Source of the DNA: Verrucomicrobiota bacterium
GTDB taxonomy: Bacteria > Verrucomicrobiota > Verrucomicrobiia > Opitutales > Opitutaceae
Assembly (NCBI GenBank): GCA_030916665.1
Contig: JAUPWC010000562.1
Coordinates: 1-16,869, forward strand
Length of the DNA: 16,869 bases
Direction: 5' to 3'
Positions 1,435 to 13,564 of the stretch are shown here, piece after piece. The first letter of the stretch is position 1. Every line of letters begins with the position of its first letter. The notes beneath the pieces are model-generated. The model did not search any database. It was not told the DNA's origin and saw only the letters and a program-made list of their open reading frames with translations. Made by a program: the position numbers and the translations under genes.

Positions 1435-1591
1435 GGAGCCGGGGCGCCCTCGCCCCGGTGGCCCCGCGTAACTCAGGGTGGAGCGCACTGACCCCAGTGC
1501 GCTGGTTTGGGTGCTGTCGCCGCCAAGCGCGATGGGGTCAACGCGCTCCACCCCAAGTCCCAAGCTGACCGGCCCGGGGCGGGCCGGCTCC
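1435..1591. repeat. Outer REP doublet (foot GGAG), interrupted by a second doublet
   Basis: The left unit is GGAG (1435-1438) followed by a perfect 8-bp stem CCGGGGCG/CGCCCCGG with a CCCT loop (1439-1458). The right unit, read on the minus strand, is GGAG (1591-1588) followed by CCGGCCC/GGGCCGG with a 5-nt loop (1587-1569). The flanks extend the symmetry (CTGGAGCCGG at 1433-1442, its complement at 1584-1593). A different doublet sits between the two units. It fills most of the gap between BNR_4 and GH28. Confidence 0.65.
1478..1551. repeat. REP doublet, family A (foot GTGG), nested copy
   Basis: GTGG (1478-1481) is followed by AGCGCACT/AGTGCGCT with loop GACCCC; the inverted right unit is GTGG plus AGCGCG..CGCGCT with a TGACCCCA-type loop, ending at 1551. 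The 28-nt arms (1476-1503 and 1526-1553) match at 24 positions after inversion. Total length is 74 bp. Two more copies of the same layout occur at 10262-10336 and 12152-12226. Confidence 0.75.
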
Positions 1592-1615
1592 AGTGGCACA
1601 GCGAGTCGACGGAAA

Positions 1616-3037
1616 TCATGGCTTGGGGGTGGGCGGATGCCAAATGAGAACCGAAACCGGCGTGGGGGCAACGGCGGCGGCTTCGCGGTCGTTGCCGTCG
1701 CGCTGGACGACCGGCTGCACGAGCAGGTGGAGCTCGCCGGTGCGGGCCCAGGCGACGGGATCGAAGGACGGCTCCCATGCGCCGACAGAACCCGCCGTGA
1801 GCGCGGTGAAGCGCCAGCCGGTCTTCCGCAGGTCCTCGCAGGTGGCGGCGACGATGCGGCCTTCCTTTTCGTCGTCGCGATAAACCAGCACGACCTCGCG
1901 GCCCTCGTCCTCGGTGGCGCGCACGGCGAGGACGGCGCGCGAGATCGGCGGGTTCTTGGTGCCGCCGCCGGCGAGCGTGAAGGGCGTGGTGCGCGCCGTG
2001 ACCTGGGTGACCCGCCACTTGAAGCCGTCATGGCGCACCACATGGAACTGCGGGATGTCGCTGCCCTCGGGCGTCCAGTAATTGGCGATCAGCGGGCGTC
2101 CGAGACTGTCGGCGGCGAGGCTGGGCGGGTTCATGAGCGAGCGGTTCGGGCCGACGCGCAGCGCGTAGTCGGCGTTGGCTGCGGTGAAGGGCACGGCGAG
2201 CGGGCGGCCATCCGCGGCGGACCAGGTGACGCCGCCGTCGAGCGAGCGGGCGTAGGCGAGATCCTGGTTGGTGGCCACGTCGGGCGTGGCGCGCCAGACC
2301 CAGGCGAGGTGCAGCGTCCCGCGTGCGTCCACGGTGTAGGCCGGGTAGGCGCTGCGCGCGCCCTCGCCGTCGATGAGGCTGGCGTGGACCCGCGACCAGA
2401 GGCGGGCGCGCCGGTCGTAGCGGCTGAGCACGAGGTTGCCGCGGCCGGAACCGCCGTCGCGGTGGAAGAACAGCAGGTCGCCGCCGGGGAGCGGCAGGAA
2501 GGCCGGATACGTGACGCGGTTCTCGTGCGCGCCGGTCATGGCCTCGCGCGGGCCGAGTTCGAGCGAACCCGGCGCGGTGCCGCGCGCGTAGTTGAGCGCG
2601 TTGTTGTGGTGATCCCACGCGATGTGGAGAAAGCCGTCGCCGTCCACGCCGAGGGCGATGGAGTTGTGGGCGTCGGCCGTGCGGCCCTTGAACGCGGTGC
2701 GGTGTGTCGTCCAAGTGTCGCGGCCAAGCGGGCGCTGCGCGAGCACGAGGGTGGAGTCGGCGGCGTAGAAGGCCGCGTATTGCGTGTCGCCATGCGTGAC
2801 CAGCGTGTGCTGGGAGTTGGCGAGCACGTTGACTGAGCTGCCGGCAAAGGCGTTGTCGGCGATCTTCAGGAGCCGCGCGCCGCCGGCGGGAGCGAGGTCG
2901 GCGGCGGAGAGGAGTGCCGGGATAAGCAGCAGGGCGAAAAATCCGGATCCCGTGTGGGCAGCGCGCTTGCGCGCGCGGATCGGGAAGAGGCGCGCGCAAG
3001 CGCGCTGGCCCACAAAGATTTCACTTCGAGTCGTCAT
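1616..3037 (-). CDS. Secreted BNR_4-type beta-propeller protein, candidate polysaccharide lyase (PL24/PL25-like) or GH145-like enzyme
   Basis: 473 residues from ATG 3037, which overlaps the upstream stop as ATGA. The start is followed by an Arg-rich n-region (residues 9-28) encoded by a palindromic repeat, then the hydrophobic core FFALLLIPALLSA (33-45). The mature part is a repeat-rich beta-propeller of the BNR_4 type: WDHHNNALNYARG (141-153), YPAF (177-180), HRDGGSGRGN (192-201), an Asp-box-like SLDGGVTWS (265-273) and NPP motifs (303-305, 362-364). BNR_4 proteins include ulvan lyases PL24/PL25 and GH145. His124 and His144 are spaced like the histidine pair I recall as catalytic in those lyases; this is from memory and not aligned. 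In this pectin cluster a role on a uronic-acid/rhamnose linkage of RG-I is plausible. It is the last gene of a four-gene coupled run. Family call is firm, substrate is inferred. Confidence 0.8.
   Translation of the reverse strand: MTTRSEIFVGQRACARLFPIRARKRAAHTGSGFFALLLIPALLSAADLAPAGGARLLKIADNAFAGSSVNVLANSQHTLVTHGDTQYAAFYAADSTLVLAQRPLGRDTWTTHRTAFKGRTADAHNSIALGVDGDGFLHIAWDHHNNALNYARGTAPGSLELGPREAMTGAHENRVTYPAFLPLPGGDLLFFHRDGGSGRGNLVLSRYDRRARLWSRVHASLIDGEGARSAYPAYTVDARGTLHLAWVWRATPDVATNQDLAYARSLDGGVTWSAADGRPLAVPFTAANADYALRVGPNRSLMNPPSLAADSLGRPLIANYWTPEGSDIPQFHVVRHDGFKWRVTQVTARTTPFTLAGGGTKNPPISRAVLAVRATEDEGREVVLVYRDDEKEGRIVAATCEDLRKTGWRFTALTAGSVGAWEPSFDPVAWARTGELHLLVQPVVQRDGNDREAAAVAPTPVSVLIWHPPTPKP
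2954..3013. repeat. REP doublet, family B (foot GTGG), inside the BNR_4 coding region
   Basis: A near-perfect inverted repeat (TGTGGGC, then AGCGCGCTTGCGCGCG, on the left; the complement on the right with one extra base) with a 15-16 nt centre. Each arm can also fold alone as GCGCGC-TT-GCGCGC. From foot to foot it is 60 bp, exactly 20 codons, and it encodes residues 9-28 of the BNR_4 protein. The motif resembles pseudomonad REP sequences with a GTGG(G) foot. Confidence 0.8.
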
Positions 3038-3918
3038 GGCTTCTGGGCCGGCTCCAGCGGCATCAGGCGGAAGGCGCAGAGCAGGGACGCGTGGCCGAAG
3101 GCGGAACGTTGCGGCGAGAGGCACCAGAAACCGCGCGGGGTCGGGCCGTCGTAGTCGATCACGATCCAGGACAGGCCGATGATCTTGTTTTCGGTCAGCA
3201 GGGAAGTCACGGAGCGCTCGGGGCCCTCGGCGCCGGCGTAGTCGAAAGGCGTGACGTAGAACTCCACCGTGACCTTGCCGCTCTCGCCGGGCTTGACCGT
3301 GAAACGCTGCGCGGCCTTTGCCCAGGGCGCGTCCTTGATCCAGGTGCCCGAGCCGAGGATGAAGGCCCAGTCCTTGTTCACGGCGGGCGTGAAGACGTGG
3401 TAGTTCTGCGCATGCACGCCGTGGATGGCGCGGCGCGAGGCCTCGGCGTCGATGCGCGGCTCGGTGCGCAGGTCGGCCGGGGCGATGAGCGCGGGCGTCC
3501 ACACGCTCTTCTGGTCGCGGGCGACGAAGGGCCCGCCGGAGGCGTCGCCATCCACCATGATCTCGAAGGTGTCGTTGCGCAGACCGGGCGAGGCAAAGTC
3601 CCAGAAGTCGTCCTCGGCTTCGTAGAGGAAGTAGAGCCGGTTCTGTCCCTTCACCCAGCCGACCTTCACCCGCACCGCGAGGGTCTTGTCCCCCGCGGCC
3701 GGCGGGGGCGTGGCCGTGTTGTGCATGTGCGAGCGGTCCACGACGTAGCTCTCGGGCACTTGGTCCCAGTCGGTGGTGTCGCCATCGATGACCGGCACCT
3801 TGTCCGCGGGGAACTGGAAGATTGGGTAGGTGACGTCAGGTTTTTCGAGGGCGCGCAAGCCGGCCGGGGCGACCAGCAGCAGAAGGAGCAGCAGGGAAGC
3901 GAAGCGGGGGGCGGTCAT
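3034..3918 (-). CDS. Secreted CBM9-like carbohydrate-binding protein
   Basis: 294 residues from ATG 3918, which overlaps the upstream stop (ATGA, 3915-3918). It has a clear Sec signal peptide: MTAPR followed by a leucine-rich core to about residue 23. Residues 44-56 (IDGDTTDWDQVPE) are the typical opening strand of CBM9/DOMON-like sugar-binding domains, followed by LYFLYEAEDDFWD (95-107) and NDTFEIMVDGD (115-125), the strand pair that usually follows. No catalytic domain is visible, so it probably binds an oligosaccharide or anchors an enzyme to substrate outside the inner membrane. Its own stop overlaps the BNR_4 start, so the two should be made in step. The fold is fairly clear; the ligand is unknown, with RG-I pieces the natural guess from context. 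Confidence 0.72.
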   Translation of the reverse strand: MTAPRFASLLLLLLLVAPAGLRALEKPDVTYPIFQFPADKVPVIDGDTTDWDQVPESYVVDRSHMHNTATPPPAAGDKTLAVRVKVGWVKGQNRLYFLYEAEDDFWDFASPGLRNDTFEIMVDGDASGGPFVARDQKSVWTPALIAPADLRTEPRIDAEASRRAIHGVHAQNYHVFTPAVNKDWAFILGSGTWIKDAPWAKAAQRFTVKPGESGKVTVEFYVTPFDYAGAEGPERSVTSLLTENKIIGLSWIVIDYDGPTPRGFWCLSPQRSAFGHASLLCAFRLMPLEPAQKP

Positions 3919-4799
3919 TTGGCGGGCGCAGGCGTGGGGTCGGGAAGGGCCGTGCCGATGATGATGAGCGGCCCGAGCGTGACGGAGCCGCGGCTGATGC
4001 GGCGCTCGAGGGCGAGCGTTTCGCCGGTGTCGCGACCGTAGAAGTCCATGGCGCTGGTGATCAGCGGCGGGAGGGTTTCTTTCATGGAGACTCCCTGGTC
4101 GTTGACGGTCAGCGTCGTGCGCCAGGCCAGCTTGCGCTCCCCCCGGGTGAGGGCGCCGAAATCGTAGGCGGACACCACGACGTAGTAGAGATCGTGGTTC
4201 ACCTGGTAACCCAGATGCTCCTCGCGCGCCATGCGTTGTAGCGGGGGAATGCCCGAGTCCATTTCGCGGGCCATCTTTTCGACGCGCGCCATTCCGCCCA
4301 CGAGCCGGGCCCGCTCCAGGATGTCGCGTCGGCGGAGGGCTATCAGCTCGGGCGACGCCATGACATCCCGCAGGTCGATGCCGGTGTGTGAACCCCAGTA
4401 ATAAAAGAGCGCCAGGCTCGGCGGGTGGGATATTTCGCGGGCGGGCAGATAGCCGCGTTTTTCGAGCACCCGTTGCAACAGCCCATCGATCTTCTCCCGC
4501 TCGGGCGGATTTTCCCGGATCGGACTCGACCCCATCTGCGTGTAGCCCTGGCTGTGTGCCACGTAATACACCGGCTGCTCCGGGGTGGGTTCGGGCAGGG
4601 TGCGGCCGTAGGTGGTTCGCTCGCTGAAAACCGTCATTTCAATCTGCGGGTTCGAAGCAAACGCTTTCGGCAGCAGATCAAGGTGGAATCCGCCCGGCCT
4701 TTTCACGAGGGGCTGACCGGGTTCCGGAACAGGGTCGGGTTCCTGGGCCGGGAGCCAAGTCGCGGCCAGGGCGCAGACGAGCAGGGGAATCGTTTTCAT
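3915..4799 (-). CDS. Secreted protein of unknown function in the PL11 operon
   Basis: 294 residues from ATG 4799, chosen because it gives a good signal peptide (MKTIPLLVCALAATWLPAQ, 1-19) and an ATGA overlap with the PL11 stop (4796-4799); an open extension further upstream only overlaps PL11. After the signal comes a Pro-rich linker (20-33), a segment with PVYYVAHSQGY (76-86), a predicted helical stretch with many charged residues (150-182), and a beta-rich C-terminal half (DLYYVVVSAYDFG, 203-215; WRTTLTVNDQG, 226-236). A proline-rich tail ends the protein. I recognise no domain or catalytic motif. LFYYWGSHTGID (131-142) is the most distinctive block. Being coupled on both sides to RG-I functions suggests an accessory role in the same pathway, but the sequence itself does not show one. 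Confidence 0.8.
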   Translation of the reverse strand: MKTIPLLVCALAATWLPAQEPDPVPEPGQPLVKRPGGFHLDLLPKAFASNPQIEMTVFSERTTYGRTLPEPTPEQPVYYVAHSQGYTQMGSSPIRENPPEREKIDGLLQRVLEKRGYLPAREISHPPSLALFYYWGSHTGIDLRDVMASPELIALRRRDILERARLVGGMARVEKMAREMDSGIPPLQRMAREEHLGYQVNHDLYYVVVSAYDFGALTRGERKLAWRTTLTVNDQGVSMKETLPPLITSAMDFYGRDTGETLALERRISRGSVTLGPLIIIGTALPDPTPAPAK

Positions 4800-6766
4800 G
4801 GCACGGGTGGGGAGTGGGGAAACTCCACGACCGGCGGGGGCGGCAGCGGGAGCGATTCGTCGAGGGCGAAGCTCGGATGCGGGGGCTGGTTGTAGGCGGT
4901 GTTTTGCCAGGCGATGGCGGCGCGGTATTGCGGGTCGTGCATCAGGGTCACGAGGCGGTGCTTGGTCGGGATCGTGCTTGTGTAGAGGCGGAGCTCCTTT
5001 TTGTCGCGCGTGGCCCAGATGACTTCCTCGCGCCAGTCGCCCCAGAGGTCGGCGCAAAGCGCGGGCGTGGCCTTGGTGCCGTTGGCGGAGGTGCATTCAG
5101 GGTCCGTGAGCAGGAGGTCGAGCGACTCGTTTTCCCAGTTCCATTTCACGATGCGGTTCTGGTCGAGCAGCTCGTTGAGCAGGTCGCCGTCCCAATAGAT
5201 GCCAAAATTCACGGGCATGCCGCGCGGGCGCCGGGCCACGACCTGGTGGCCGGTGGCGTCGTGGATGCCGTCCATCCCCGCGCCGGCGGCCCAGGATTCG
5301 GCACCCGGGAAACGCGGGTCGATGTTGAAGGTGTTGCCGCGGCCCGGACCCTCGCCCTTGTCGCCGCCCTCGGTGGCGGCCTTCACGGACGGGATCGCGA
5401 AGATGGCTTCGCCGGTCCGCGCGTCACGCAGGCTCAGGCCCTGGGCGTCGAAACGTTCCTGGATGTCGCCGATCTCGAGACCGGGGCGGCCGGGCACGAA
5501 GTCGCCGACGTGCAACGCGTCGCCGTGGCCCCAGCCGGTGGAGTAAAGGCCGGTGCCGTTGTCGTTCACGACCATGGCGCCGTAGATGATCTCCTGCTTC
5601 GCGTCACCGTCCACGTCGGCGACGGACAGGTTGTGGTTGCCCTGGCCGCGCCATTGGTTGGTTCGATCCGGTGGCCCGAGTTTGTCGGAATCGAAAACCC
5701 AGCGCGAGGTGAGCTTCCCGTCGCGCCAGTCCCACGCGGCGAGGGTGCTGCGCGTGTAGTAACCGCGGCACATGACGAGGCTGGGCAGGTGTCCGTCGAG
5801 CCAGGCCACTCCGGCGAGGTAGCGTTCGCTGCGGTTGGCGTTGCCGTCGCCCCAGACGGTTTTCATCTGGTCGGGCGTCGGGTTCGGGGTGTCGGGATGG
5901 CGGCCGGGGAGGTAATCCACGGTGGCGAGCGCGGCGCCGGTGCGGCCGTCGAAAACCGTGAGAAACTCGGGGCCGCGCACGATGTGGCCGCGGTCGTTGC
6001 GGTGGTCGGCGGAGGCGTCGCCGATCACCTTGCCCGTGCCGTCCACGGTGCCGTCGGCGGTTTTGCAGGCGAGTTCGGCGCGGCCGTCGCCGTCGAGGTC
6101 GGCGACCATGAACTGCGTGTAGTGCGCGCCTTCACGAATGTTTTTCCCGAGGTTGATCGTCCACAGGAGTTTGCCGTCGAGGCGGTAGGCCTGGAGGAGG
6201 GTCTCGCCGGTGAGACCGGAGCGGGAGTTGTCCTGCGGATTCTGCTCCTGCTTGAGGATGATTTCGTAGTCCCCGTCGCCGTCGAGATCGCCGACGGAGG
6301 CGTCGCCGGGCGTGTAGCCCTCGGGGGTCTGGATCGGCACGGACAGGTAAGGCAGGGGCGCGGGATAAGGCCGGAAGACAAAGCTCTTGCTGGGCGGACC
6401 TACGACGCCGTCCACCACGGGGCGGACGAACCAGGCGGTCTCGCGGTCGAGGCTGGGGGCGGGGTCGATGAACCAGGTGGGGCCGGCGAGGGGCTCGGAG
6501 TTGAGTTTCGCCATGACCGGCCCGCGTTCCTGGTTGTTCGACATCTGGCCGGGTGCGCCGGGACGCCCGGGTCCGGGGGCCGTGGTGCGATAAACGTTAA
6601 AGGCCGTGCCGGGCGCGTCGTTGGCGAGCAGGCGCCAGCTCACGAAGACCTTGCCGTCGGGCTGCTGGACGGCGGTGACGCCGCGGGAGAGGCGCTCCAT
6701 GACCGGAGCGGCGGGGAGCGGCAGGCCGAAAGCGACGGTAAAGGTGAGGAGGGTGACGAGGCGCAT
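4796..6766 (-). CDS. Rhamnogalacturonan endolyase, PL11 family (YesW/YesX-like)
   Basis: 656 residues from ATG 6766 (C-rich upstream context CCCC-ATG). Signal peptide 1-20, then a fibronectin-like N-terminal domain (about 28-135; VSWRLLANDAPGTAFNVYRT) and the eight-bladed PL11 propeller. Calcium-binding repeats of the DxDGDGxxE type are visible at 160-168, 223-231 and 384-392 (DVDGDAKQE). Family blocks include GDGNANRSERYLAGVAWLDG (306-325), CRGYYTRS (333-340), GQGNHNLSVADVDGD (374-388) and GWGHGDALHVGDF (411-423). PL11 enzymes cleave the rhamnose-galacturonate backbone of RG-I by beta-elimination with calcium. Length and domain order match the family. It opens the four-gene ATGA-coupled run and is the strongest substrate marker in the cluster. 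It starts 17 bp after a single REP element that follows the esterase stop. Confidence 0.95.
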   Translation of the reverse strand: MRLVTLLTFTVAFGLPLPAAPVMERLSRGVTAVQQPDGKVFVSWRLLANDAPGTAFNVYRTTAPGPGRPGAPGQMSNNQERGPVMAKLNSEPLAGPTWFIDPAPSLDRETAWFVRPVVDGVVGPPSKSFVFRPYPAPLPYLSVPIQTPEGYTPGDASVGDLDGDGDYEIILKQEQNPQDNSRSGLTGETLLQAYRLDGKLLWTINLGKNIREGAHYTQFMVADLDGDGRAELACKTADGTVDGTGKVIGDASADHRNDRGHIVRGPEFLTVFDGRTGAALATVDYLPGRHPDTPNPTPDQMKTVWGDGNANRSERYLAGVAWLDGHLPSLVMCRGYYTRSTLAAWDWRDGKLTSRWVFDSDKLGPPDRTNQWRGQGNHNLSVADVDGDAKQEIIYGAMVVNDNGTGLYSTGWGHGDALHVGDFVPGRPGLEIGDIQERFDAQGLSLRDARTGEAIFAIPSVKAATEGGDKGEGPGRGNTFNIDPRFPGAESWAAGAGMDGIHDATGHQVVARRPRGMPVNFGIYWDGDLLNELLDQNRIVKWNWENESLDLLLTDPECTSANGTKATPALCADLWGDWREEVIWATRDKKELRLYTSTIPTKHRLVTLMHDPQYRAAIAWQNTAYNQPPHPSFALDESLPLPPPPVVEFPHSPPVP

Positions 6767-6783
6767 GGGGTGGGCGCGGGGCA

Positions 6784-6809
6784 GGCGGGGTTCGGAGACC
6801 CCGTCCTAC
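6784..6809 (-). repeat. Single REP unit, family C (foot GTAG)
   Basis: On the minus strand it reads GTAG followed by a stem with 7 of 8 pairs (GACGGGGT/ACCCCGCC) and loop CTCCGA. It is nearly identical to the two units of the doublet at 13487-13564 but has no partner. It sits in the 53-bp gap, 10 bp after the esterase stop and 17 bp before the PL11 start. Confidence 0.75.
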
Positions 6810-6819
6810 AACTGGGAGC

Positions 6820-7770
6820 TCAGGGTTTCGGGGTGGGCGTCAGCAGGCCGCGGGCGCGGAGCCATTCGCGGGCGCGGTCAGGCCAGTCGGAGGCGGTGCC
6901 GAATTCCGCCTTCATGCCCATGCCGTGCGAGCCGCGCTCAAAGGCGTAGAATTCGGCGGGCGCGCCGGCCTTGGTCAGCGCCTGGAAAAAGCGGATGCTG
7001 TTCTCGACCGGCACGGCCTTGTCCTCCTGGGTGTGGATGAGGAGCGTGGGCGGGGTGGCGGCGGTGACGCGGTTCTCCAGAGAGAAGAAGGCCTCCTGTT
7101 CCGGCGTGCGGGCTTTGCCGAGCAGGTTTTCGCGCGAGCCGTTGTGCGTGACGCCGTCGGCCATGGTGATGACGGGATACATGAGGATGAGGAAATCGGG
7201 GCGCGCGTTGACCGCATCGAGCGCGTGATCGGTCTTGCCGTCGGCGTGGTCGAAGAGCGTGCCGGCGCTGGCGGCGAGGTGGCCGCCGGCGGAGCTGCCC
7301 ATCACGCCGAGGCGCGCGGGGTCGATCTTGAACTCGGCGGCGCGCGAGCGCACGAGCCGCACAGCGCGGAGCACGTCCTGCAGCGGAGCGGGGTGGCCGT
7401 ATTCCTTCAGGCGGCTCTTGAGGATGAAACTGGTGACGCCGAGGTGGCTGAGCCACTGGGCGTATTGCACGCCCTCACGGTCGTGGGAGAGCATGCCGTA
7501 GGCGCCGCCCGGGCAGATGATGACGGCGGTGCCGTTGGGGCGATCCACGGCGGGCCAGTAAACCGTGAGCGTGGGCGCGGAGACATTGGCGATGCGGCCG
7601 CCCTCCTCGAGCTTCTCCGGTCCGAGCGGGCCGAGGGCAGCCGGCGCGTCGGGCCGCACGGCGGCGGGCACGCCTTCGGGCCAGAGCGGGATGACCGGGT
7701 GGTCGGTGAAGGCGGCGTCGGCGACGGAGGTGAACAGGAGCGAGGACATGAGGAGGGCGGGGAGTTTCAT
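6820..7770 (-). CDS. Secreted alpha/beta-hydrolase, probable acetyl (xylan/pectin-type) esterase
   Basis: 316 residues from ATG 7770 with a signal peptide (MKLPALLMSSLLFTSVADA, 1-19). It has the alpha/beta-hydrolase fold: an oxyanion-hole region PGGAYG (87-92), a nucleophile elbow GSSAGG with Ser160 in the centre, an acid candidate Asp250 in HTQEDKAVP, and His282 in RGSHGMG. The opening IPLWPEGVPA (27-36) is typical of secreted esterases annotated as acetylxylan esterase-like or endoxylanase-B-like in plant-polysaccharide clusters. In this setting it probably removes acetyl groups from pectin so that lyases and hydrolases can act; the substrate is inferred. It lies between GH53 and PL11, separated from each by a short repeat-bearing gap (109 bp and 53 bp), so a shared transcript is possible. 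Confidence 0.88.
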   Translation of the reverse strand: MKLPALLMSSLLFTSVADAAFTDHPVIPLWPEGVPAAVRPDAPAALGPLGPEKLEEGGRIANVSAPTLTVYWPAVDRPNGTAVIICPGGAYGMLSHDREGVQYAQWLSHLGVTSFILKSRLKEYGHPAPLQDVLRAVRLVRSRAAEFKIDPARLGVMGSSAGGHLAASAGTLFDHADGKTDHALDAVNARPDFLILMYPVITMADGVTHNGSRENLLGKARTPEQEAFFSLENRVTAATPPTLLIHTQEDKAVPVENSIRFFQALTKAGAPAEFYAFERGSHGMGMKAEFGTASDWPDRAREWLRARGLLTPTPKP

Positions 7771-7788
7771 GGGAAACGGTATCGGGTC

Positions 7789-7850
7789 GTAGCTGCGTTG
7801 GAGCGTAGCGACAACGTGGCTACGCTTTCGCTGCGCTCAAGCGCGGCTAC
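7789..7850. repeat. REP doublet, family D (foot GTAG)
   Basis: GTAG at 7789 and inverted CTAC ending at 7850 bound a 62-bp element. The left unit folds as GCTGCG/CGTAGC with one G-T pair, the right as GCNGCGC/GCGCNGC with loop TTGA. An inner CGTAGC..GCTACG pairing is also possible. It lies 29 bp after the GH53 stop and 18 bp before the esterase start. Confidence 0.65.
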
Positions 7851-7879
7851 GAAGAACAAGCAGCGATGCACGCGGAAAT

Positions 7880-9034
7880 TCATGGCGGGTTGGCTTTCAC
7901 GGTTTTCCCGCGCGTCCAGCGGTCGAAGACGGTGATCACGGGCAGGGCGTTGCCGGCGGCGTCGAACATGCCGCGGCTGGCGATGCGGGTCTGCGGCGGG
8001 ACGGCGGGCTCCCACCAGAACACGCCCTTGCCGAGACCGTGGGGGGTGGCGAGGACGGCGCGGTGCACCTCGTCGAGAAAGTCGCGCTGGCCCTCGGGCG
8101 TCTCGGGGAAGGGCGCGGGCTCGTCGAGGTATTCGGTGGGCCGCCAGTTGTAGGCCACTTCGACGAGGTAGATGTCCTTGCGGTAGGTCTCCGCCATGAA
8201 GGCGAGCGTGTCGCGCAGGTCGAGCAGCGAGCCGTGCCACCACGGGTAGTAGGACTGGCCGATGACGTCGAACTCCACGCCGCGCTGCTTGAGGTTGTCG
8301 AAGAACCAGCGCGTGCGCTCGCGGTCGCCGCTCTTCTCGATGTGCAGCATGATCTGCGGGCGCGGGGCGTCGCCGCGGCCGGCCTCGACGCCGGCGATGC
8401 CGGCCTTGAGCAGCGCGGCGAAGGTATCCCAGTTTTCCGGCAGCTTGCCGTGGGGCCAGAGCATGCCGGGCGTGACCTCGTTGCCGATCTGCACCATGTT
8501 GGGCATCGCGCCGGCCTCGCGGAACGCCGCGATGGTGTCGCGCGTGTAGTCGTGCACGGCGGCGACGAGCGCGGCGGGATCGAGCGCTTCCCACGCCTTG
8601 GGCAGGAACTGCTTCGCCGGGTCGGCCCAGGTGTCGGAGTAGTGGTAGTTGAGCAGGAACTTGTAGCCCTTGGCCTTCGCCTCCTGCGCGAGCGCGAGGG
8701 TGTAGGCGAGGTCGTTGGGCAGCGGGCGCGGCTGCGTGGACGGCGTATGAAACAGCCGCAGGCGGATCCAGTTGTAGCCGTGGTCGCGGAAGATCTGCAG
8801 CCCGGGTTTCACCACGCCGCCATCCTTGAACGGTACGCCGCGCGCCTCGACCTGTTTCAGAAACGACAGGTCGGCGCCGATGGCGTAGTCGTGCGCGGCG
8901 GGGAGCGACGCGCCGGCCAGCAGGCAAAGAATGCAGCCGGCGAGGATGGTTTGTAGGGGCGTGGCTCGACCACGCCCGTCGCGGGCGAGCACAAGGCGCG
9001 CCCCTACAGAAGAGGTGGCTGGTTGCCGGCTCAT
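7880..9034 (-). CDS. Endo-beta-1,4-galactanase, GH53 family
   Basis: 384 residues from ATG 9034, which overlaps the stop of GH43 gene a (ATGA, 9031-9034) and has CCC just upstream. The first 28 residues are Arg-rich and largely encoded by a palindromic repeat; the signal-peptide core follows (ILAGCILCLLAGASLPAA, 30-47). The mature enzyme begins at about 48 with DYAIGADLSFLKQVEARG, a standard GH53 opening. Catalytic residues are Glu186 in VQIGNEVTPGMLW (acid/base) and Glu292 in YLVEVAYNW (nucleophile); DVIGQSYYPWWHG (256-268) and GVFWWEPA (337-344) are further family blocks. GH53 cleaves beta-1,4-galactan, the main galactan side chain of RG-I. No other in-frame ATG lies between the repeat and the hydrophobic core, so ATG 9034 is the best start despite its long n-region; a GTG inside the repeat is the only near alternative. 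Confidence 0.93.
   Translation of the reverse strand: MSRQPATSSVGARLVLARDGRGRATPLQTILAGCILCLLAGASLPAAHDYAIGADLSFLKQVEARGVPFKDGGVVKPGLQIFRDHGYNWIRLRLFHTPSTQPRPLPNDLAYTLALAQEAKAKGYKFLLNYHYSDTWADPAKQFLPKAWEALDPAALVAAVHDYTRDTIAAFREAGAMPNMVQIGNEVTPGMLWPHGKLPENWDTFAALLKAGIAGVEAGRGDAPRPQIMLHIEKSGDRERTRWFFDNLKQRGVEFDVIGQSYYPWWHGSLLDLRDTLAFMAETYRKDIYLVEVAYNWRPTEYLDEPAPFPETPEGQRDFLDEVHRAVLATPHGLGKGVFWWEPAVPPQTRIASRGMFDAAGNALPVITVFDRWTRGKTVKANPP
8953..9007. repeat. REP doublet, family E (foot GTAG), inside the GH53 coding region
   Basis: The left unit is GTAG plus a perfect 8-bp stem GGGCGTGG/CCACGCCC with loop CTCGA. The right unit, inverted, is GTAG plus GGGCG-GC/GC-CGCCC with one mismatch and loop CTTGT, ending with CTAC at 9007. 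The 55-bp element encodes most of residues 10-27 of GH53, before the signal-peptide core. Confidence 0.8.
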
Positions 9035-10188
9035 GGGTTGGGCGCGGTCGGATCGTCCGGTCGCGGCACGCCGAAGTCGGGCGTGCCGTCGGCGCGCCAT
9101 TGCACGGCCTGCACGCGCGTGTGGCGGTTGGGATCGCGCAGCGGGTCGCCCTGGATGTCGCGGTAACTGCGGCCGTGATAGACGATGAGGTCGGTGACGC
9201 CGTCCTCGGCGACCGTGAAGCAATGGTGTCCCGGGCCGAAGATGCGGTTCTCCTCGCTCGTGACGAAGACCGGCTCGGGCGACTTGGTCCACGATTTGGG
9301 ATCGAGGAGGTCGGCGTTCTCGTCGGCCGTGAGCAGGCCCACGCAATACTCGGGTCCCGTGCCGGCGGCGGAGTAGGTGAGAAAGAGGCGGCCGTTTTTG
9401 CGGAGCATCATCGGGCCCTCGTTGACCCAGTAGCGCACCTGCTCCCACGGGAACTCGGGTTTCGAGAGCAGCACGGCCGGGCCGCCGAGGGTCGTCGGCG
9501 TGGCCAGCGGGGCGAGGTAGAGGTTGGTGTTGCCCTTGATGCCGGGCTGCTGCTGGGCCCAGAGCAGGTAGCGCTTGCCGCGATGCTCGAAGACCGAGGC
9601 GTCGAGCGCGAAGGATTCCCAGCCCGTCTTGAGCTGGCCGCGCTCGATCCATTCGCCCTGAAACGGATCGGCCGAGGCGTTTTCGAGGACGTAGATGCGG
9701 ATGTTCCAAATCTTCTCGGCCTCGCCGGCGGCAAAATAAACGAACCACTTGCCGTCGAGATGGTAGATCTCCGGCGCCCAGATGTGCGCGCCCATGATGC
9801 CCGTGGCGTGCTTGCGCCAGATGACCTTCTCCTCGGCGCCCGCGAGGCCGGCGATGGTCGGCGCACGGCGCAGGATGAGGCGGTCGTATTCCGGCACGGT
9901 GCCCATGAAGTAATATTGCCCGTCGGTGTGCCGGAGGAGGTGCGGGTCGGCGCGCTGGCGGATGAGGGGATTCGGGTAGTCGGCGGCGGCAGCGGAAGGG
10001 AGGAACCACGAAACACACGAAAGACACGAAAAAAGCAGAAGCACCCATGGTGGCATCCGGGTAGCAGCCGTGGTCACACGGCTGGACAGCGGCGTGACCG
10101 CCGCTGCTACGGGGAAAAGCGAATCTCCGACAACGCGCTCAGGATGACAGGCAAGGGCGGCTCCCTCGTTCTGGCGGGGGTGGGGCAT
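9031..10188 (-). CDS. GH43 family glycosidase (a), probable arabinan-active enzyme
   Basis: 385 residues if it starts at ATG 10188; a shorter form from ATG 10056 has 341. I prefer 10188 because it has the CCC-ATG context of the other first genes and a promoter-like motif 45 bp upstream, but 10056 (MPPWVLLLFSC) directly precedes the hydrophobic core. A TTG at 10224 is also open and less likely. The catalytic domain is a five-bladed propeller with the three GH43 carboxylates, numbered on the short form: Asp37 (RADPHL), Asp152 (ALDASVFE), Glu213 (VNEGPMML). IWAPEIYHLDGKWFVYFA (92-109) is a typical blade. GH43 enzymes mostly release arabinose or xylose; with GH51 and GH53 nearby, arabinan or arabinogalactan is the likely target. 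The gene is translationally coupled to GH53. Family firm, start uncertain. Confidence 0.88.
   Translation of the reverse strand: MPHPRQNEGAALACHPERVVGDSLFPVAAAVTPLSSRVTTAATRMPPWVLLLFSCLSCVSWFLPSAAAADYPNPLIRQRADPHLLRHTDGQYYFMGTVPEYDRLILRRAPTIAGLAGAEEKVIWRKHATGIMGAHIWAPEIYHLDGKWFVYFAAGEAEKIWNIRIYVLENASADPFQGEWIERGQLKTGWESFALDASVFEHRGKRYLLWAQQQPGIKGNTNLYLAPLATPTTLGGPAVLLSKPEFPWEQVRYWVNEGPMMLRKNGRLFLTYSAAGTGPEYCVGLLTADENADLLDPKSWTKSPEPVFVTSEENRIFGPGHHCFTVAEDGVTDLIVYHGRSYRDIQGDPLRDPNRHTRVQAVQWRADGTPDFGVPRPDDPTAPNP
10004..10031. repeat. 9-nt tandem repeat encoding a signal-peptide core, copy 1
   Basis: Three units of CACGAAA plus a two-base joint (CA or GA), preceded by AAC. On the coding strand the 9-nt period equals three codons and gives Ser-Cys-Leu, Ser-Cys-Val, Ser-Trp in the hydrophobic core of GH43 gene a. 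The 28-nt block matches the one at 13230-13257 except at two joint bases. Confidence 0.8.
10061..10110. repeat. REP doublet, family F (foot GTAG)
   Basis: Both units are perfect: GTAG plus CAGCCGTG/CACGGCTG with loop GTCA (10061-10084), and inverted GTAG plus CAGCGGCG/CGCCGCTG with loop GTCA ending at 10110. The stems differ at two pairs between units but each pairs fully within itself. Only four bases separate it from ATG 10056; with the preferred start at 10188 it lies inside the coding region of GH43 gene a. Confidence 0.85.
10134..10149 (-). repeat. Half copy of the CATCCTGAG palindrome
   Basis: On the minus strand it reads GTCATCCTGAGCG, matching the left edge of the full palindrome at 13278-13371; the second half is missing. 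It sits exactly 40 nt after ATG 10188, as the full copy does after ATG 13411. Confidence 0.6.
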
Positions 10189-10217
10189 GGGAGGAAGGGT
10201 CGGCCAAAACTTTCCCC

Positions 10218-10245
10218 GCGGCAAACGGTAACTCGTCTTACTGTC
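10218..10245 (-). promoter_or_regulatory. Upstream motif shared by both GH43-type genes, copy 1
   Basis: On the minus strand it reads GACAGTAAGACGA, four bases, then CCGTTTGCCGC. The counterpart at 13439-13466 matches at 22 of the 24 fixed positions. It ends 30 bp before ATG 10188. TTGCCG could be a -35 element, but no convincing -10 follows here, so an activator or repressor site is also possible. Confidence 0.4.
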
Positions 10246-10261
10246 CGGCGAGGGACTGGAG

Positions 10262-10336
10262 GTGGAGCGACCTGCTCCTCAGGGCGCTTTCCGCGAGCGG
10301 GTCTCCTTTTGCGCGTTGGGGAGCAACGCGCACCAC
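10262..10336. repeat. REP doublet, family A (foot GTGG), copy 2
   Basis: GTGG (10262-10265) is followed by AGCGaCCTG/CAGGgCGCT with loop CTCCT; the inverted right unit is GTGG plus a perfect 8-bp stem TGCGCGTT/AACGCGCA with a 7-nt loop, ending at 10336. Length is 75 bp, as in the other family A copies. It begins 10 bp after the GH29 stop. Confidence 0.65.
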
Positions 10337-10346
10337 CTGGCGGACC

Positions 10347-12032
10347 TCACCGCAGGCTGATCTTGAAAACCACCGGGCCAGCCGGGCCGGTCGTGGCGCC
10401 GGCGTCGAGCACGAGGGCGTCGGCGGTCCGGCTCCATTTCACCGGGGCGGCGGAGCCGAGCAGTTCCACGCTGGCGATGGCGCGGTCGAGGCGGCTGGCG
10501 GCGGAGCCGAGAGCTTTGACGGAGACGGGGGCGGTGGGACGGACGAGGCCGATCACGTAGAGCGTGCGGCCGTCCTTCGACTGCGTGTAGCGCACGTCGT
10601 CGGCGGTGTAGGGTTTGCCCTTGTCCTCGTTGAAGCCCTGCGCGTTGAGGGCGGCGCCGGCGCTGGCCGGGCCTTCGCCGAAGATCTGCCACGGGCGCGT
10701 GCCGAAGATGGCCTCGCGGTTCACGTCCATCCAGGCGGCGATGCCCTCGACCACGGCGAGGCTGGCGTCGTCGGGCGTGCCGTCGCCACGGAGCGGGATA
10801 TTGAGCAGGAGATTGCCGTTCTTGCTGACGATGTCGGCGAGCATCTGCAGGACGGTGGCGGCGCTCTTGTAACGGTTCTGCGCGGCGAGCTTTTGGTCGT
10901 AGTGCCAGCTGCCGATGCAGGTGCAGGTCTGCCACGGGAGCGCCTGGATGTCGTTGGGTGCGCCGCGCTCGACGTCCCACACGACGGCGCGCTTCTGGTC
11001 GGCGGTGAGGACCTTGCCGAACAGCACCGTGTCGGGCTTGCCGCCGTTGCGCGCGGTGCCCTGGTTGTAGAAGTGCGCCGCAATCTTCAGGCCGGCGTCA
11101 CTGACGGGCCAGAGCGGCAGCGCGGTGTCGTCGAAGTAGAGCAGGTCGGGCTTGAACCGGTTGATGAGGTCCATCGTGCGGTTGTAGAACCGCTCGGAAT
11201 AGGCCTGGTCGGGCGGGGTGATGCCGTTCCCCCAGTCCCAGCGCTCGTGGATCTTGAGCGGCTCGGCGAAGCCCTCGGCCGGCGCGTGGCGTTGCTCGTA
11301 GAGGTCCTGCGGGTCGAGGCCCTCCCACCAAGTCCCCTTGCCGGCGGCGGCGGTGAGCTTGCCGTCGTAGGGCACGCCGGCGAGCGGGCCTGCTTTGTCG
11401 GCGCCCTGCGAGGGCTCATACCAGCTCCACGCGTGGGCGGCGTGGACGCTCACGCCGAACTTCAGGCCGTTCGCCCGCGCGGCCTTGGCCCAGCCGGCGA
11501 TGAGATCCTTCTGCGGGCCGACACGCACGGAGTTCCACGGCTGGTATTTCGAGTTCCAGAGGTCGAGGTTGTCGTGGTGGTTGGCGAGGGCGAAAAAATA
11601 CTGGGCGCCCGCGCGCTTGTAGAGCGCGACGAGCTGGTCGGGGTTCCAGCGCTCAGCCTTCCAGCGGTGGATGACGTCCTTGAAGCCGGCCTGCGACGGG
11701 TGGCCGTAGGTTTCGCGGTGGAAGGCCGTGACGTTGGGCCCCCAGGCGGGGCCCTTTTCGAAATACAGGTGGCGCGCATACCAGTCACCCCTGCCGGGTT
11801 CGCACTGCGGCCCCCAGTGGGCCCAGATGCCGAATTTCGCGTCGCGGAACCACTCGGGTGCCTCGTAGCCGCGGAGCGAGTCCCAGGTCGGCGCAAACGG
11901 CCCGGCGGTGACGGGCTCGCGCGCGGTGCTGACGATCACGCTGGGCACGGCGTCGCTCGGAATCGAGGCGGGCGCAAAGGCGGGCAACAGTGGCAACAGC
12001 AGGGCAGGCAGGAAGCGAACGCGGGTATTCAT
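10347..12032 (-). CDS. Alpha-L-fucosidase, GH29 family
   Basis: 561 residues from ATG 12032 (CCC-ATG context), with signal peptide MNTRVRFLPALLLPLLPAFA (1-20). GH29 blocks are clear: WFRDAKFGIWAHWGPQ (61-76), ANHHDNLDLWNSKY (150-163), and KPDLLYFDD (294-302), whose Asp301 fits the catalytic nucleophile. NGNLLLNIPLRGDG, further along, is the conserved end of the TIM barrel, followed by a beta-rich C-terminal domain. An open 23-residue extension upstream of ATG 12032 has no export signal and was not used. GH29 enzymes remove alpha-L-fucose; fucose decorates RG-I side chains, RG-II and xyloglucan, so the fit with the cluster is good but not exclusive. The start codon lies 119 bp downstream of a palindromic doublet that follows the GH43 gene b stop. 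Confidence 0.93.
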   Translation of the reverse strand: MNTRVRFLPALLLPLLPAFAPASIPSDAVPSVIVSTAREPVTAGPFAPTWDSLRGYEAPEWFRDAKFGIWAHWGPQCEPGRGDWYARHLYFEKGPAWGPNVTAFHRETYGHPSQAGFKDVIHRWKAERWNPDQLVALYKRAGAQYFFALANHHDNLDLWNSKYQPWNSVRVGPQKDLIAGWAKAARANGLKFGVSVHAAHAWSWYEPSQGADKAGPLAGVPYDGKLTAAAGKGTWWEGLDPQDLYEQRHAPAEGFAEPLKIHERWDWGNGITPPDQAYSERFYNRTMDLINRFKPDLLYFDDTALPLWPVSDAGLKIAAHFYNQGTARNGGKPDTVLFGKVLTADQKRAVVWDVERGAPNDIQALPWQTCTCIGSWHYDQKLAAQNRYKSAATVLQMLADIVSKNGNLLLNIPLRGDGTPDDASLAVVEGIAAWMDVNREAIFGTRPWQIFGEGPASAGAALNAQGFNEDKGKPYTADDVRYTQSKDGRTLYVIGLVRPTAPVSVKALGSAASRLDRAIASVELLGSAAPVKWSRTADALVLDAGATTGPAGPVVFKISLR

Positions 12033-12101
12033 GGGCGGTTGGGGGTTACCGACAATGCAAGGGAACGGACTCACCCTGTAGATTCCGGGCGGCTGCGCCA
12101 A

Positions 12102-12124
12102 CCCGCTCTCATGGAGATAGCGGG
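12102..12124. other. Hairpin in the GH29 leader
   Basis: CCCGCTCTC pairs with GAG-AGCGGG across an ATG loop, with a two-base bulge. It lies 70 bp upstream of the GH29 start and 28 bp from the family A doublet. It has no GTAG-type foot and no T-run, so it is neither a clear REP unit nor a clear terminator; a leader RNA structure is possible. Confidence 0.35.
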
Positions 12125-12151
12125 CCCAATGATGGATAAGATGGGCGGAGG

Positions 12152-12226
12152 GTGGAACACGTTGACCCCAACGCGTTGTTCGATCCTCGCTCGCCGAACC
12201 AGAGTCTTGGGGACAAGCCGCTCCAC
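12152..12226. repeat. REP doublet, family A (foot GTGG), copy 3
   Basis: GTGG (12152-12155) is followed by AACaCGTT/AACGcGTT (7 of 8 paired) with loop GACCCC, identical to the loop of the 1478 copy. The right unit, ending CCAC at 12226, is decayed but keeps GTGG, AG, CTT/AAG and a TCCCC loop. Length is 75 bp. It begins 12 bp after the stop of GH43 gene b. Confidence 0.65.
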
Positions 12227-12238
12227 CTCGATCGGCCC

Positions 12239-13411
12239 TTACCGCGGCGCCCTCAGCACCACATGCGTCGGCGCATCGCGGTCGCAGGTGAGGACGCCGT
12301 TCTTTTCAACGAGTTCGACGACCTGGATGGAGCTGCGGCGGAGCTCGAGGTTCTGCTTGTCGTCGGGGCTGATGGTGCCGTTGCGGCCGGGGTGGGTGAA
12401 GTAGAACACGTAGGCGCGGTCGCCGGCGACCACGACGCCCGGATGGCCGCCGTTCACGCCGTCGTCGGCGCCCTGGCCGGGCACGCCGAGCAGGTCACCG
12501 GTTTGCGCGGTCCAGGTCTCAAGGTCGTCGGAACGATAAACGCCGAGGCCCTTCCACAAATCCACCAGCATCCAATACGCGCCGCGCCAGTGGAAGACGT
12601 AGGGGCCCTCGCCCGGACGCTCGCCGACGCCGGCGCATTTGCCCTTTTCGGTCCAAGTAAAGAGGTCGGTGCTGTCGGCGTAGTAGATGGATTTTTTGTC
12701 GCGCTCGTTGTTATACCACATGCGCCAGCCGCCGCCGGGGAGGGGATATACGGCGGCGTCGATCACGCGGTCGGAGGCGAGCGTGAGGGCGGACTCGTAT
12801 TTCCACTTCCGCAGGTCGCTGCTCGTGAGATGGACGATGCGGCGCGGGTGCTGCCAGTTTTCGAAGATGCCGGGCACGGCGGTGAGATACATGTGGTGCT
12901 TCCCATCGGGCGCGGTGATGACATCCGGCGCCCAGTGCGTGGGCTCGGCGCCGCCGATGTCGGCGGGCAGCTCGATGTCGGCGGTGCCGAGATAGGTCCA
13001 ACGCGCGCCGTCGGCCGATTCGGCGATGCCGATTTTGCAGCCATGCACCCAGGCCACGCCGGAGAGGCCGGGCTGGTTGGCGCGGCGGTTGGTGTAGAAC
13101 ATCCACCAGCGCTGGGCCTTGGTGTTCCACACCACAACTGGATCGGCCGCACCGTCGAAGACCGGGTCGCGGAAAAGGGGCTTCGGGGCCACGGGGCCGG
13201 CGGGTTCCGCGGCGTGAGCGAGTGGGAGAAACCACGAAAGACACGAAACACACGAAACCAGAACCATCAGCCGCAGCGTCATCCTGAGCCGTGCGAAGGA
13301 TCCAAGGGAATGTCCGTAAACGAAATCAGGCTCGTCGCACCGCATGGATCCTTCGCGCGGCTCAGGATGACATGCCAAGGGGATGGGAGCGGAACAAGGG
13401 GTCAGGGGCAT
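12239..13411 (-). CDS. GH43-like (clan GH-F) five-bladed propeller glycosidase (b)
   Basis: 390 residues from ATG 13411; shorter forms start at ATG 13282 (347 residues) or 13267 (342). ATG 13411 has the CCC-ATG context and a plausible promoter ending 6 bp upstream, which would make a leaderless message; the 13282 form has the more ordinary signal peptide (MTLRLMVLVSCVSCLSWFLP). Three carboxylates fit the GH43 pattern, numbered on the 13282 form: Asp47 (GAADPVVVW), Asp175 (RVIDAAVYP) and Glu225 (GEGPYVFHW). THWAPDVI (115-122) and WWMFYTNRR (59-67) are typical blades. It is only distantly similar to GH43 gene a in sequence, so it is not a simple duplicate even though the two leaders are alike. 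Substrate is unknown; arabinose- or galactose-containing side chains of pectin are likely from context. Confidence 0.85.
   Translation of the reverse strand: MPLTPCSAPIPLACHPEPREGSMRCDEPDFVYGHSLGSFARLRMTLRLMVLVSCVSCLSWFLPLAHAAEPAGPVAPKPLFRDPVFDGAADPVVVWNTKAQRWWMFYTNRRANQPGLSGVAWVHGCKIGIAESADGARWTYLGTADIELPADIGGAEPTHWAPDVITAPDGKHHMYLTAVPGIFENWQHPRRIVHLTSSDLRKWKYESALTLASDRVIDAAVYPLPGGGWRMWYNNERDKKSIYYADSTDLFTWTEKGKCAGVGERPGEGPYVFHWRGAYWMLVDLWKGLGVYRSDDLETWTAQTGDLLGVPGQGADDGVNGGHPGVVVAGDRAYVFYFTHPGRNGTISPDDKQNLELRRSSIQVVELVEKNGVLTCDRDAPTHVVLRAPR
13230..13257. repeat. 9-nt tandem repeat encoding a signal-peptide core, copy 2
   Basis: Same three-unit block as 10004-10031, with the two variable joint bases swapped. 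It encodes Ser-Cys-Val, Ser-Cys-Leu, Ser-Trp in the hydrophobic core of GH43 gene b. Confidence 0.8.
13278..13371. repeat. Full CATCCTGAG palindrome
   Basis: Arms GTCATCCTGAGCC..GCGAAGGATCC and the complement bound a 94-bp element; each arm also folds on itself (ATCCT..AGGAT around GC/GC). This palindrome type recurs in many environmental genomes, and its translation gives the familiar HPEPREGS and FARLRMT strings, seen here in the frame of GH43 gene b. The ATG at 13282 lies inside it. Confidence 0.8.
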
Positions 13412-13417
13412 GGGTGA

Positions 13418-13466
13418 AAATTAGCCGACTGGGGCGCGGCGGCAACCGGCGGTTCGTCTTACCGTC
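13418..13466 (-). promoter_or_regulatory. Shared GH43 upstream motif, copy 2, with candidate promoter
   Basis: On the minus strand GACGGTAAGACGA (13466-13454), four bases, CCGGTTGCCGC (13449-13439). TTGCCG (13445-13440) could be a -35 and TAATTT (13423-13418) a -10, spaced 16 bp. The -10 ends 6 bp before ATG 13411, so transcription would start at or next to the start codon. Confidence 0.42.
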
Positions 13467-13486
13467 AGGCTGCCGACGGTTCGGTT

Positions 13487-13564
13487 GTAGGCGGGGTCTC
13501 CGAACCCCGCCTTTGCTCGATCAACCAAGCCGCCCCGAGGCGGGGTTCGGAGACCCCGCCCTAC
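13487..13564. repeat. REP doublet, family C (foot GTAG)
   Basis: Both units read GTAG followed by a perfect 8-bp stem GGCGGGGT/ACCCCGCC with loop CTCCGA (the left unit shares the last foot G with the stem). They face each other across about 28 bp. It begins 16 bp after the GH51 stop. The single unit at 6784-6809 is the same family. Confidence 0.85.

Follow-up and report, generated by a model that had tools for sequence, protein, structure and literature searches.

The closest described systems are families of repetitive extragenic palindromic sequences (REPs), short hairpins preceded by a conserved tetranucleotide, here called the foot. Opitutus terrae has been reported as "highly enriched" in several GTAG families (GTAG-17, -19 and -20), and passages of the same paper describe GTGG feet in most GTAG-20 units, stems of 6-9 bp, facing (HH) dimers and repeat-specific REPtrons (Di Nocera et al. 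2013, PMC3733652). For Stenotrophomonas and Pseudomonas, passages of two papers report genes for REP-associated tyrosine transposases (RAYTs) lying between inverted REPs, RAYT-REP coevolution, a GT(A/G)G head, paired stem changes and REP class switching beside orthologous RAYTs (Nunvar et al. 2010, PMC2817692; 2013, PMC3686654). The window analysed here is a stretch of 16,869 nucleotides, contig C140 of a host assembly of 4.29 Mb in 698 contigs, 85% complete. It carries ten foot-plus-hairpin elements in seven stem families, well above chance; these are very probably REPs, mostly REPINs (REP doublets forming hairpins, made of two close inverted units), each family being spread by its own RAYT and turning over between genes.

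With O. terrae, as far as the cited passages go, the host has in common the presence of several GTAG-type families in one Verrucomicrobia genome, GTGG feet and facing dimers; family B of the window shares with GTAG-17, -19 and -20 only the GTGG foot and the broad lineage, in a comparison made by text description. RAYTs between inverted REPs, coevolution and paired stem changes are common to the Stenotrophomonas and Pseudomonas systems of the passages cited; here a GGAG foot and a long-loop family (E) are found as well, and 12 RAYTs in a single complete congener, G071, compare with the 6 of the 2010 Stenotrophomonas case (PMC2817692). The GTAG- or GTGG-type foot lies 5' of the palindrome as in other REPs, while GGAG departs from the GT(A/G)G definition. 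Most hairpins are short near-perfect palindromes directly after the foot, like those of TnpAREP group 3 in passages of Corneloup et al. (2021, PMC8266576), and some RAYT-flanking hairpins have internal mismatches, by which, on the hairpin description given there, they resemble group 2. Other RAYT-flanking hairpins have the form GT(A/G)G-GA-stem-TTTAC or CTTG-stem-GA, like the Pseudomonas-type REP (GTAG-1, with GA between foot and stem), whereas window family C has GCCA or GCA at that place.

All ten elements listed by the initial annotation were found in place, and they fall, as it had proposed, into seven families, six with GTAG or GTGG feet and one (A) with GGAG. The families, with the start of each element and the consensus, are: A (1435), GGAG CCGGGGCG CCCT; B (three elements, 1478, 10262 and 12152), GTGG AGCGnnnTG nnCC; C (2954), GTGGGC(C)A GCGCG CTTG; D (two elements, 6784 and 13487), GTAG GGCGGGGT CTCCGA; E (7789), GTAGC[CT]GCG.. 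followed by a long loop; F (8953), GTAG GGGCGTGG CTCGA; G (10061), GTAG CAGCCGTG GTCA. The single units are:

1435..1458, plus strand: family A unit 1, GGAG CCGGGGCG CCCT CGCCCCGG
1569..1591, minus strand: family A unit 2, inverted, outside the B pair
1478..1503, plus strand: family B unit 1, GTGG AGCGCACTG ACCC CAGTGCGCT
1526..1551, minus strand: family B unit 2, inverted, one mismatch
2954..2976, plus strand: family C unit 1, GTGGGCAGCGCGCTTGCGCGCGC
2991..3013, minus strand: family C unit 2, inverted, GTGGGCCAGCGCGCTTGCGCGCG
6784..6809, minus strand: family D single unit, GTAG GACGGGGT CTCCGA ACCCCGCC, one A-C mismatch
7789..7820, plus strand: family E unit 1, long loop, GTAGCTGCGTTGGAGCGTAGCGACAACGTGGC
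7819..7850, minus strand: family E unit 2, inverted
8953..8977, plus strand: family F unit 1, GTAG GGGCGTGG CTCGA CCACGCCC
8983..9007, minus strand: family F unit 2, inverted, one C-T mismatch
10061..10084, plus strand: family G unit 1, GTAG CAGCCGTG GTCA CACGGCTG
10087..10110, minus strand: family G unit 2, inverted, two compensated pairs relative to unit 1, CAGCGGCG GTCA CGCCGCTG
10262..10288, plus strand: family B second element (H) unit 1, one mismatch
10310..10336, minus strand: family B second element (H) unit 2, inverted
12152..12177, plus strand: family B third element unit 1, one mismatch
12201..12226, minus strand: family B third element unit 2, inverted, imperfect
13487..13511, plus strand: family D second element unit 1
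13539..13564, minus strand: family D second element unit 2, inverted, GTAG GGCGGGGT CTCCGA ACCCCGCC

An inverted partner close by is present in nine of the ten elements. The partner of A lies beyond the B pair, B being thus nested inside A, and facing pairs are also listed across the samples of the host and its congeners. The common rule put forward for all elements, a foot followed by a stem of about 8 bp and a loop of 2-7 nt, holds for most of them and fails for two families: by simple pairing E has a loop of about 11 nt, and in C the sequence GTGGGC(C)A is followed by a short GC stem around CTTG. An unpaired position is found in the second units of 1478, 8953 and 12152, in the first units of 10262 and 12152, and in 6784. 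Compensatory arms had been claimed for element F; the pattern is found at 10061, where CAGCCGTG/CACGGCTG in one arm faces CAGCGGCG/CGCCGCTG in the other, and not at 8953, where the second arm has its C-T mismatch.

Copies of each family were counted by pattern over the whole host assembly, on both strands, with a mismatch limit of 2 or 3 and the reversed pattern as control. Five families are multicopy, with 36 matches for A (control 1), 122 for B (1), 44 for C (0, counted from the unit 2 pattern), 64 for D (0) and 31 for F (0). For G there are 3 matches (0) and for E at least 3 (0), a lower bound since E was sought by one arm only; the window itself accounts for one of the 3 E matches and for two of the 3 G matches, and the others have 3 mismatches. 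The occurrence as single copies in the host, named by the initial annotation as grounds for refutation, therefore comes near to applying to E and G only, and relatives carry more: E-region matches occur, among the matches listed, in G088, G091, G092 and G097, and G has 52 matches in G088 and 10 in G091. Family abundance differs sharply between congeners; G has no match in 8 of 13 genomes, D has 158 in G082 and none in 8 of 15, and F has 76 in G037 and none in 7 of 15. Controls in the other genomes gave 0-2 matches, except for family A (up to 6, in G091).

The link with RAYTs was evaluated on 100 RAYT-like genes, consisting of 91 of the 169 matches in 24 genomes and of 9 named loci; among the named loci with the nearest RAYT, several come from metagenome-assembled genomes of Opitutia, Opitutaceae or Opitutus. 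Of the catalytic motifs, HxH is found in 98 of the 100 frames, a Y...NP-like tyrosine in 94, and both in 93. In a foot-blind test on the 95 RAYTs with enough flank, after removal of duplicates, the same inverted sequence lies on both sides of 69 at a score of at least 16, versus 7 of 285 flanks mismatched between genomes; the figures are 73 and 10 at a threshold of 14, and 57 and 5 at 20. Together with the five multicopy families, this bears out the proposed REP/REPIN identity and the connection with RAYTs.

Three RAYT-like genes were found in the host, all matching NCBIfam NF047646 below its curated cut-off. The first (C316) is an open frame of 173 codons with an HVH motif, with a B unit upstream, another at its 3' end and more beyond. 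The second (C529) is interrupted by an internal stop and lies between GTAG GGCCGGT CTCCG hairpins; its assignment to family D was dropped because both this hairpin and its clade differ from those of the D-type RAYT of G082. The third (C667, locus L001) is of a 309-residue RAYT-like type without such hairpins. By eye, L001 (G000:C667) is bounded instead by inverted GGGGTCATGC-type sequences, resembling the type flanked by terminal inverted repeats (TIRs) described in a passage of PMC3733652.

RAYTs flanked by units of their own family, which the initial annotation had named as support, are thus found in the host for B and in relatives for D, E and F; for A and C the flanking hairpins are related ones, and for G none was seen. 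In G082 a RAYT is flanked by D units (GGCGGGGT CGCCGA), and RAYTs in G037 (GGGCGTGG CTTGA) and G071 have F units to either side. E units, all in one orientation, lie on both sides of a G020 RAYT (L114), and face each other around a RAYT remnant in G088 (L207; G088:C14:149954). B-like units are found in 8 of the 9 named homologue loci used, L091 being the one without. RAYTs in G082, G083, G086 and G090 carry a GGAG GCGGGGTG CCCT hairpin to which family A comes close, and G082 also has intermediate stems; RAYTs with this stem and loop and a GTGG foot occur in G037, G049 and G086. Family C resembles RAYT hairpins in G064 and G089.

The initial annotation had left two explanations side by side, several RAYTs, or one enzyme that reads foot and shape rather than stem sequence. 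If one or very few RAYTs served all seven families in this way, ignoring the letters of stem and loop, it would be understandable that seven families stand against three RAYT-like genes in a host assembly that is 85% complete, that feet and geometry are common to the families, that stems within a family vary and stay paired, and that G088 (G units) and G071 (B units) hold many units with no matching RAYT found. In G071, however, the 12 RAYTs carry 12 different hairpin labels, two of them only 2 edits apart, and 11 of the 12 pass the foot-blind flank test. A foot-stem-loop hairpin could be named for 76 of the 100 RAYTs, the other 24 being duplicates or unfit for that form, and labelling from flank sequence preceded the construction of the RAYT tree. 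On this tree, obtained by a quick method with 25 of 73 inner branches open, hairpin families group into clades, and the same hairpins recur next to related RAYTs in different genomes. After removal of one long-branch row and two near-duplicates, 73 RAYT-hairpin pairs remain, over which protein identity correlates with the edit distance of the hairpins at a Mantel r of -0.558, none of 2000 permutations being as extreme; in 55 of the 73 the hairpin of the nearest RAYT from another genome lies within 4 edits (null mean 2.8, maximum 13). Correlation and clades give the pattern of many specific pairs inherited together. A single RAYT shared across families was rejected on these grounds and on the 12 labels of G071, and we consider such sharing improbable; several RAYTs are what is observed. 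The interpretation in the initial annotation is as a whole partly supported; a weaker form of its second alternative, tolerance of stem letters within a family, is borne out by the paired stem changes.

These changes were evaluated on units from all fetched loci, genomes mixed, by comparing the real stem halves with 500 shuffles of the halves; most loop letters were fixed by the patterns used. Units fully paired at the free stem positions were 24 of 26 for F (shuffled mean 6.5, maximum 14), 43 of 54 for B (20.8, 26), 11 of 11 for D (5.7, 10) and 21 of 21 for a GTAG CGGCG family (13.3, 19), each count being above all 500 shuffles. Hairpins were also compared by RAYT identity, on same-length pairs only. 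For RAYTs more than 60% identical (34 of 34 pairs), 0% of foot, 15% of loop and 12-13% of stem positions differ; for those 50-60% identical (57 of 77 pairs), 4%, 11% and 18-19%; for those 40-50% identical (66 of 219 pairs), 15%, 22% and 36-37%. The foot is accordingly the most constant part of the hairpin; among close pairs, no clearly greater constancy is seen in the loop than in the stem. The idea that loops are held constant was dropped, as they differ less than stems only at 40-60% RAYT identity and not above 60%; it is weak also because the paired-stem patterns fix most loop letters. According to passages of PMC8266576, group 3 TnpAREP tolerate changes of GTAG and not changes at certain loop positions, a result on which our figures do not decide either way.

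The foot changes 7 times on the RAYT tree, too few events to name the responsible residues. A column scan gave candidates for foot-setting residues, none of which is claimed, with 4-5 independent pairs among the tests listed; one such column has F where others have Y before the HUH motif, in 18 of 23 GTGG rows and 3 of 52 others. For a cleavage dinucleotide following the hairpin, base profiles of the fetched loci show no clear foot-dependent site. At the base just 5' of the foot, four GTAG families have T in 76-100% of their units. Of four GGAG families, three have T there in 90-100% of units and one in 43%; two GTGG families have G in 98-100%, and a third (n=5) has T. At one RAYT (L061, G049:101071) the hairpins of the two sides agree in stem and loop and differ in foot, GTGG versus GTAG.

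Turnover was followed in G092, a complete congener collinear with the window at 84-92% identity, where 8 of the 10 element sites are empty or otherwise occupied. The E element is present at the same site, and of H (10262) the left unit is in place, the right unit (10310..10336) being cut short. The A/B stretch is missing. A 13278-type pair stands in place of element C, and an E-like element in place of the one at 12152. At D (6784) there is a GTAG GGTCGGCC pair together with an extra reading frame, at F likewise an extra reading frame, at G a different doublet (GTGG GCGGTGAG CTTG), and at 13487 other sequence. G082 has a D-type pair near the 13487 place as well. With 8 of 10 sites absent or replaced the elements turn over, gain and loss between genomes being indistinguishable in direction. 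G092 (L243/L244) has open stretches of 309, 404 and 370 codons versus window positions 6767-6814, 8923-9049 and 10324-10362; as these fall at elements D and F and at the end of 10262, gene gain or loss coincides with REP sites.

The 13278-type pair corresponds to an eighth inverted pair of the window, at 13278-13371 (GTCATCCTGAGC..GAAGGATCC), absent from the initial annotation and itself present at the same site in G092. Within 154 kb of host sequence its core matches 7 times, one match being poor. As a RAYT element it was rejected, its core CATCCTGAG being found in 0 of the 95 RAYT flanks examined.

The window is a minus-strand gene cluster. Of its 10 scanned frames, 8 match families of pectin or related sugar degradation or esterases (GH28, BNR_4, RGL11, BD-FAE esterase, GH53, GH43 twice, and alpha-L-fucosidase) and 2 have no family match. 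All ten elements lie outside the protein matches, as expected of mostly intergenic repeats; the start codon of the gene beside element C (2954) is uncertain. Lying between genes of the same orientation, the hairpins would fold in RNA, and REPs are credited with such roles in a passage of PMC3733652, so that they might be ordinary transcription terminators or mRNA-stabilising structures of the cluster rather than mobile elements. Copies across the genome and around RAYT genes, facing doublets and the 8 of 10 orthologous sites with a different element or none speak against this explanation, which we hold to be very improbable. Structured RNA was likewise rejected, the window giving no Rfam match at the gathering threshold; the hairpins may still have a secondary role as terminators or in mRNA.

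A scan by a strict rule (one of the three feet, a perfect 7-9 bp stem, a loop of 3-7, nested matches counted once) found 9 units and 3 facing pairs in the window, one pair joining a B unit with an A unit; before nested matches were merged, the figures were 10 and 4. This rule skips the imperfect units of elements C, D (6784), E and I (12152) and half of B, F and H (10262). One hundred dinucleotide shuffles of the window gave a mean of 0.34 units (maximum 2) and 0 pairs (maximum 0). A foot-blind scan for 4-mers preceding perfect 8-bp stems, over 257,278 host bases (the window and 40 contigs), found GTAG 19 times versus 0.4 expected (52-fold), AAAA 5 versus 0.4 (14-fold), GTGG 7 versus 0.9 (7.4-fold), GGAG 5 versus 0.8 (6.2-fold) and CCGA 5 versus 1.2 (4.0-fold); the top 4-mers in 400 kb of a congener were GTAG (27 versus 0.7), GGAG (15 versus 1.5), AAAA (7 versus 0.8) and GTGG (6 versus 1.7). 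High GC does yield many short palindromes, visible among the single matches, but the shuffles, and the genome-wide copies of five families with controls of 0 or 1, refute chance for the multicopy families and leave it a negligible prospect overall, the case for E and G resting on copies in relatives.

Several observations weigh against the proposal that each family is a set of mobile REPs spread by its own RAYT. In the host, E and G come close to being single-copy. The controls for family A are noisy, with 6 matches in G091, where the pattern itself has none, and 3 in G071, where it has 6. The A/B gap in G092 does not end at the feet. Among the RAYTs examined, no exact partner was found for A or C, only related hairpins, and none with G units. 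Strictly applied, the rule fails for B in G071, which has 82 B matches and B hairpins at 0 of its 12 RAYTs, and for G in G088, which has 52 G matches and only 3 weak RAYT matches; relic families or loss of the RAYT would explain such unmatched units. Finally, 26 of the 95 RAYT-like genes fail the flank test, including the E-unit loci L114 and L207 and the F-unit locus L071 of G037. G088 also has the RAYT remnant L207 between E-type hairpins, and a family may in this genome have outlived its enzyme.

On the preferred explanation, that of families each with its own RAYT, REPs would be short non-autonomous DNA hairpins settling between genes, each family mobilised by a RAYT (TnpA-REP) of its own. 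This enzyme, a single-strand transposase of the HUH type, would have its gene between inverted copies of the hairpin of its family. In binding the folded strand, the RAYT would read the foot and the paired shape of the stem and, on weaker grounds, the loop, and the letters of the stem could drift as long as pairing is kept. Many RAYT-hairpin pairs would coexist in the genus, with families expanding, contracting and giving way to others at the same intergenic sites, and a stretch of 17 kb may in this way catch seven families at different stages. The results above show the anatomy of the hairpins, their copy numbers, their position beside RAYTs, the co-inheritance of RAYT and hairpin, the paired changes in the stems and the turnover of sites; mobilisation by the enzyme and the details of recognition are inferred.

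This kind of element is already known, from the O. terrae GTAG families of 2013 and the RAYT-REP coevolution of 2010. New here are the density of elements, the large natural series of RAYT-hairpin pairs and, more weakly, the GGAG foot. The string GGAG is absent from the main text of PMC3733652 and PMC8266576, figures and supplements lying outside the search; it occurs 18 times in PMC3686654, in the passages shown inside GTGGGAG- or GTAGGAG-type sequences. No paper turned up in a literature search for the whole words GGAG, REP and RAYT. The GGAG foot may therefore be new, within a search that left aside figures, supplements and PMC2817692.

For this lineage the results decide between the two explanations of the initial annotation in favour of many specific enzymes, not one general enzyme. 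Tentatively, and with slightly less than even confidence, we suggest that the Opitutaceae offer a natural recognition series, with up to a dozen RAYT-hairpin pairs per genome and with separate changes of foot, loop and stem across a single RAYT tree; stem and loop (GCGGGGTG CCCT) would be kept among related RAYTs that differ in foot (GGAG versus GTGG), GGAG REPs being a variant with RAYTs of their own. If this is true, and if the foot is the cleavage guide proposed for TnpAREP, such pairs would be naturally rewritten guides. The results also point to a large set of matched RAYT-hairpin pairs, some with the same stem and loop and a different foot, on which the recognition and cutting of repeats by RAYTs can be tested directly.

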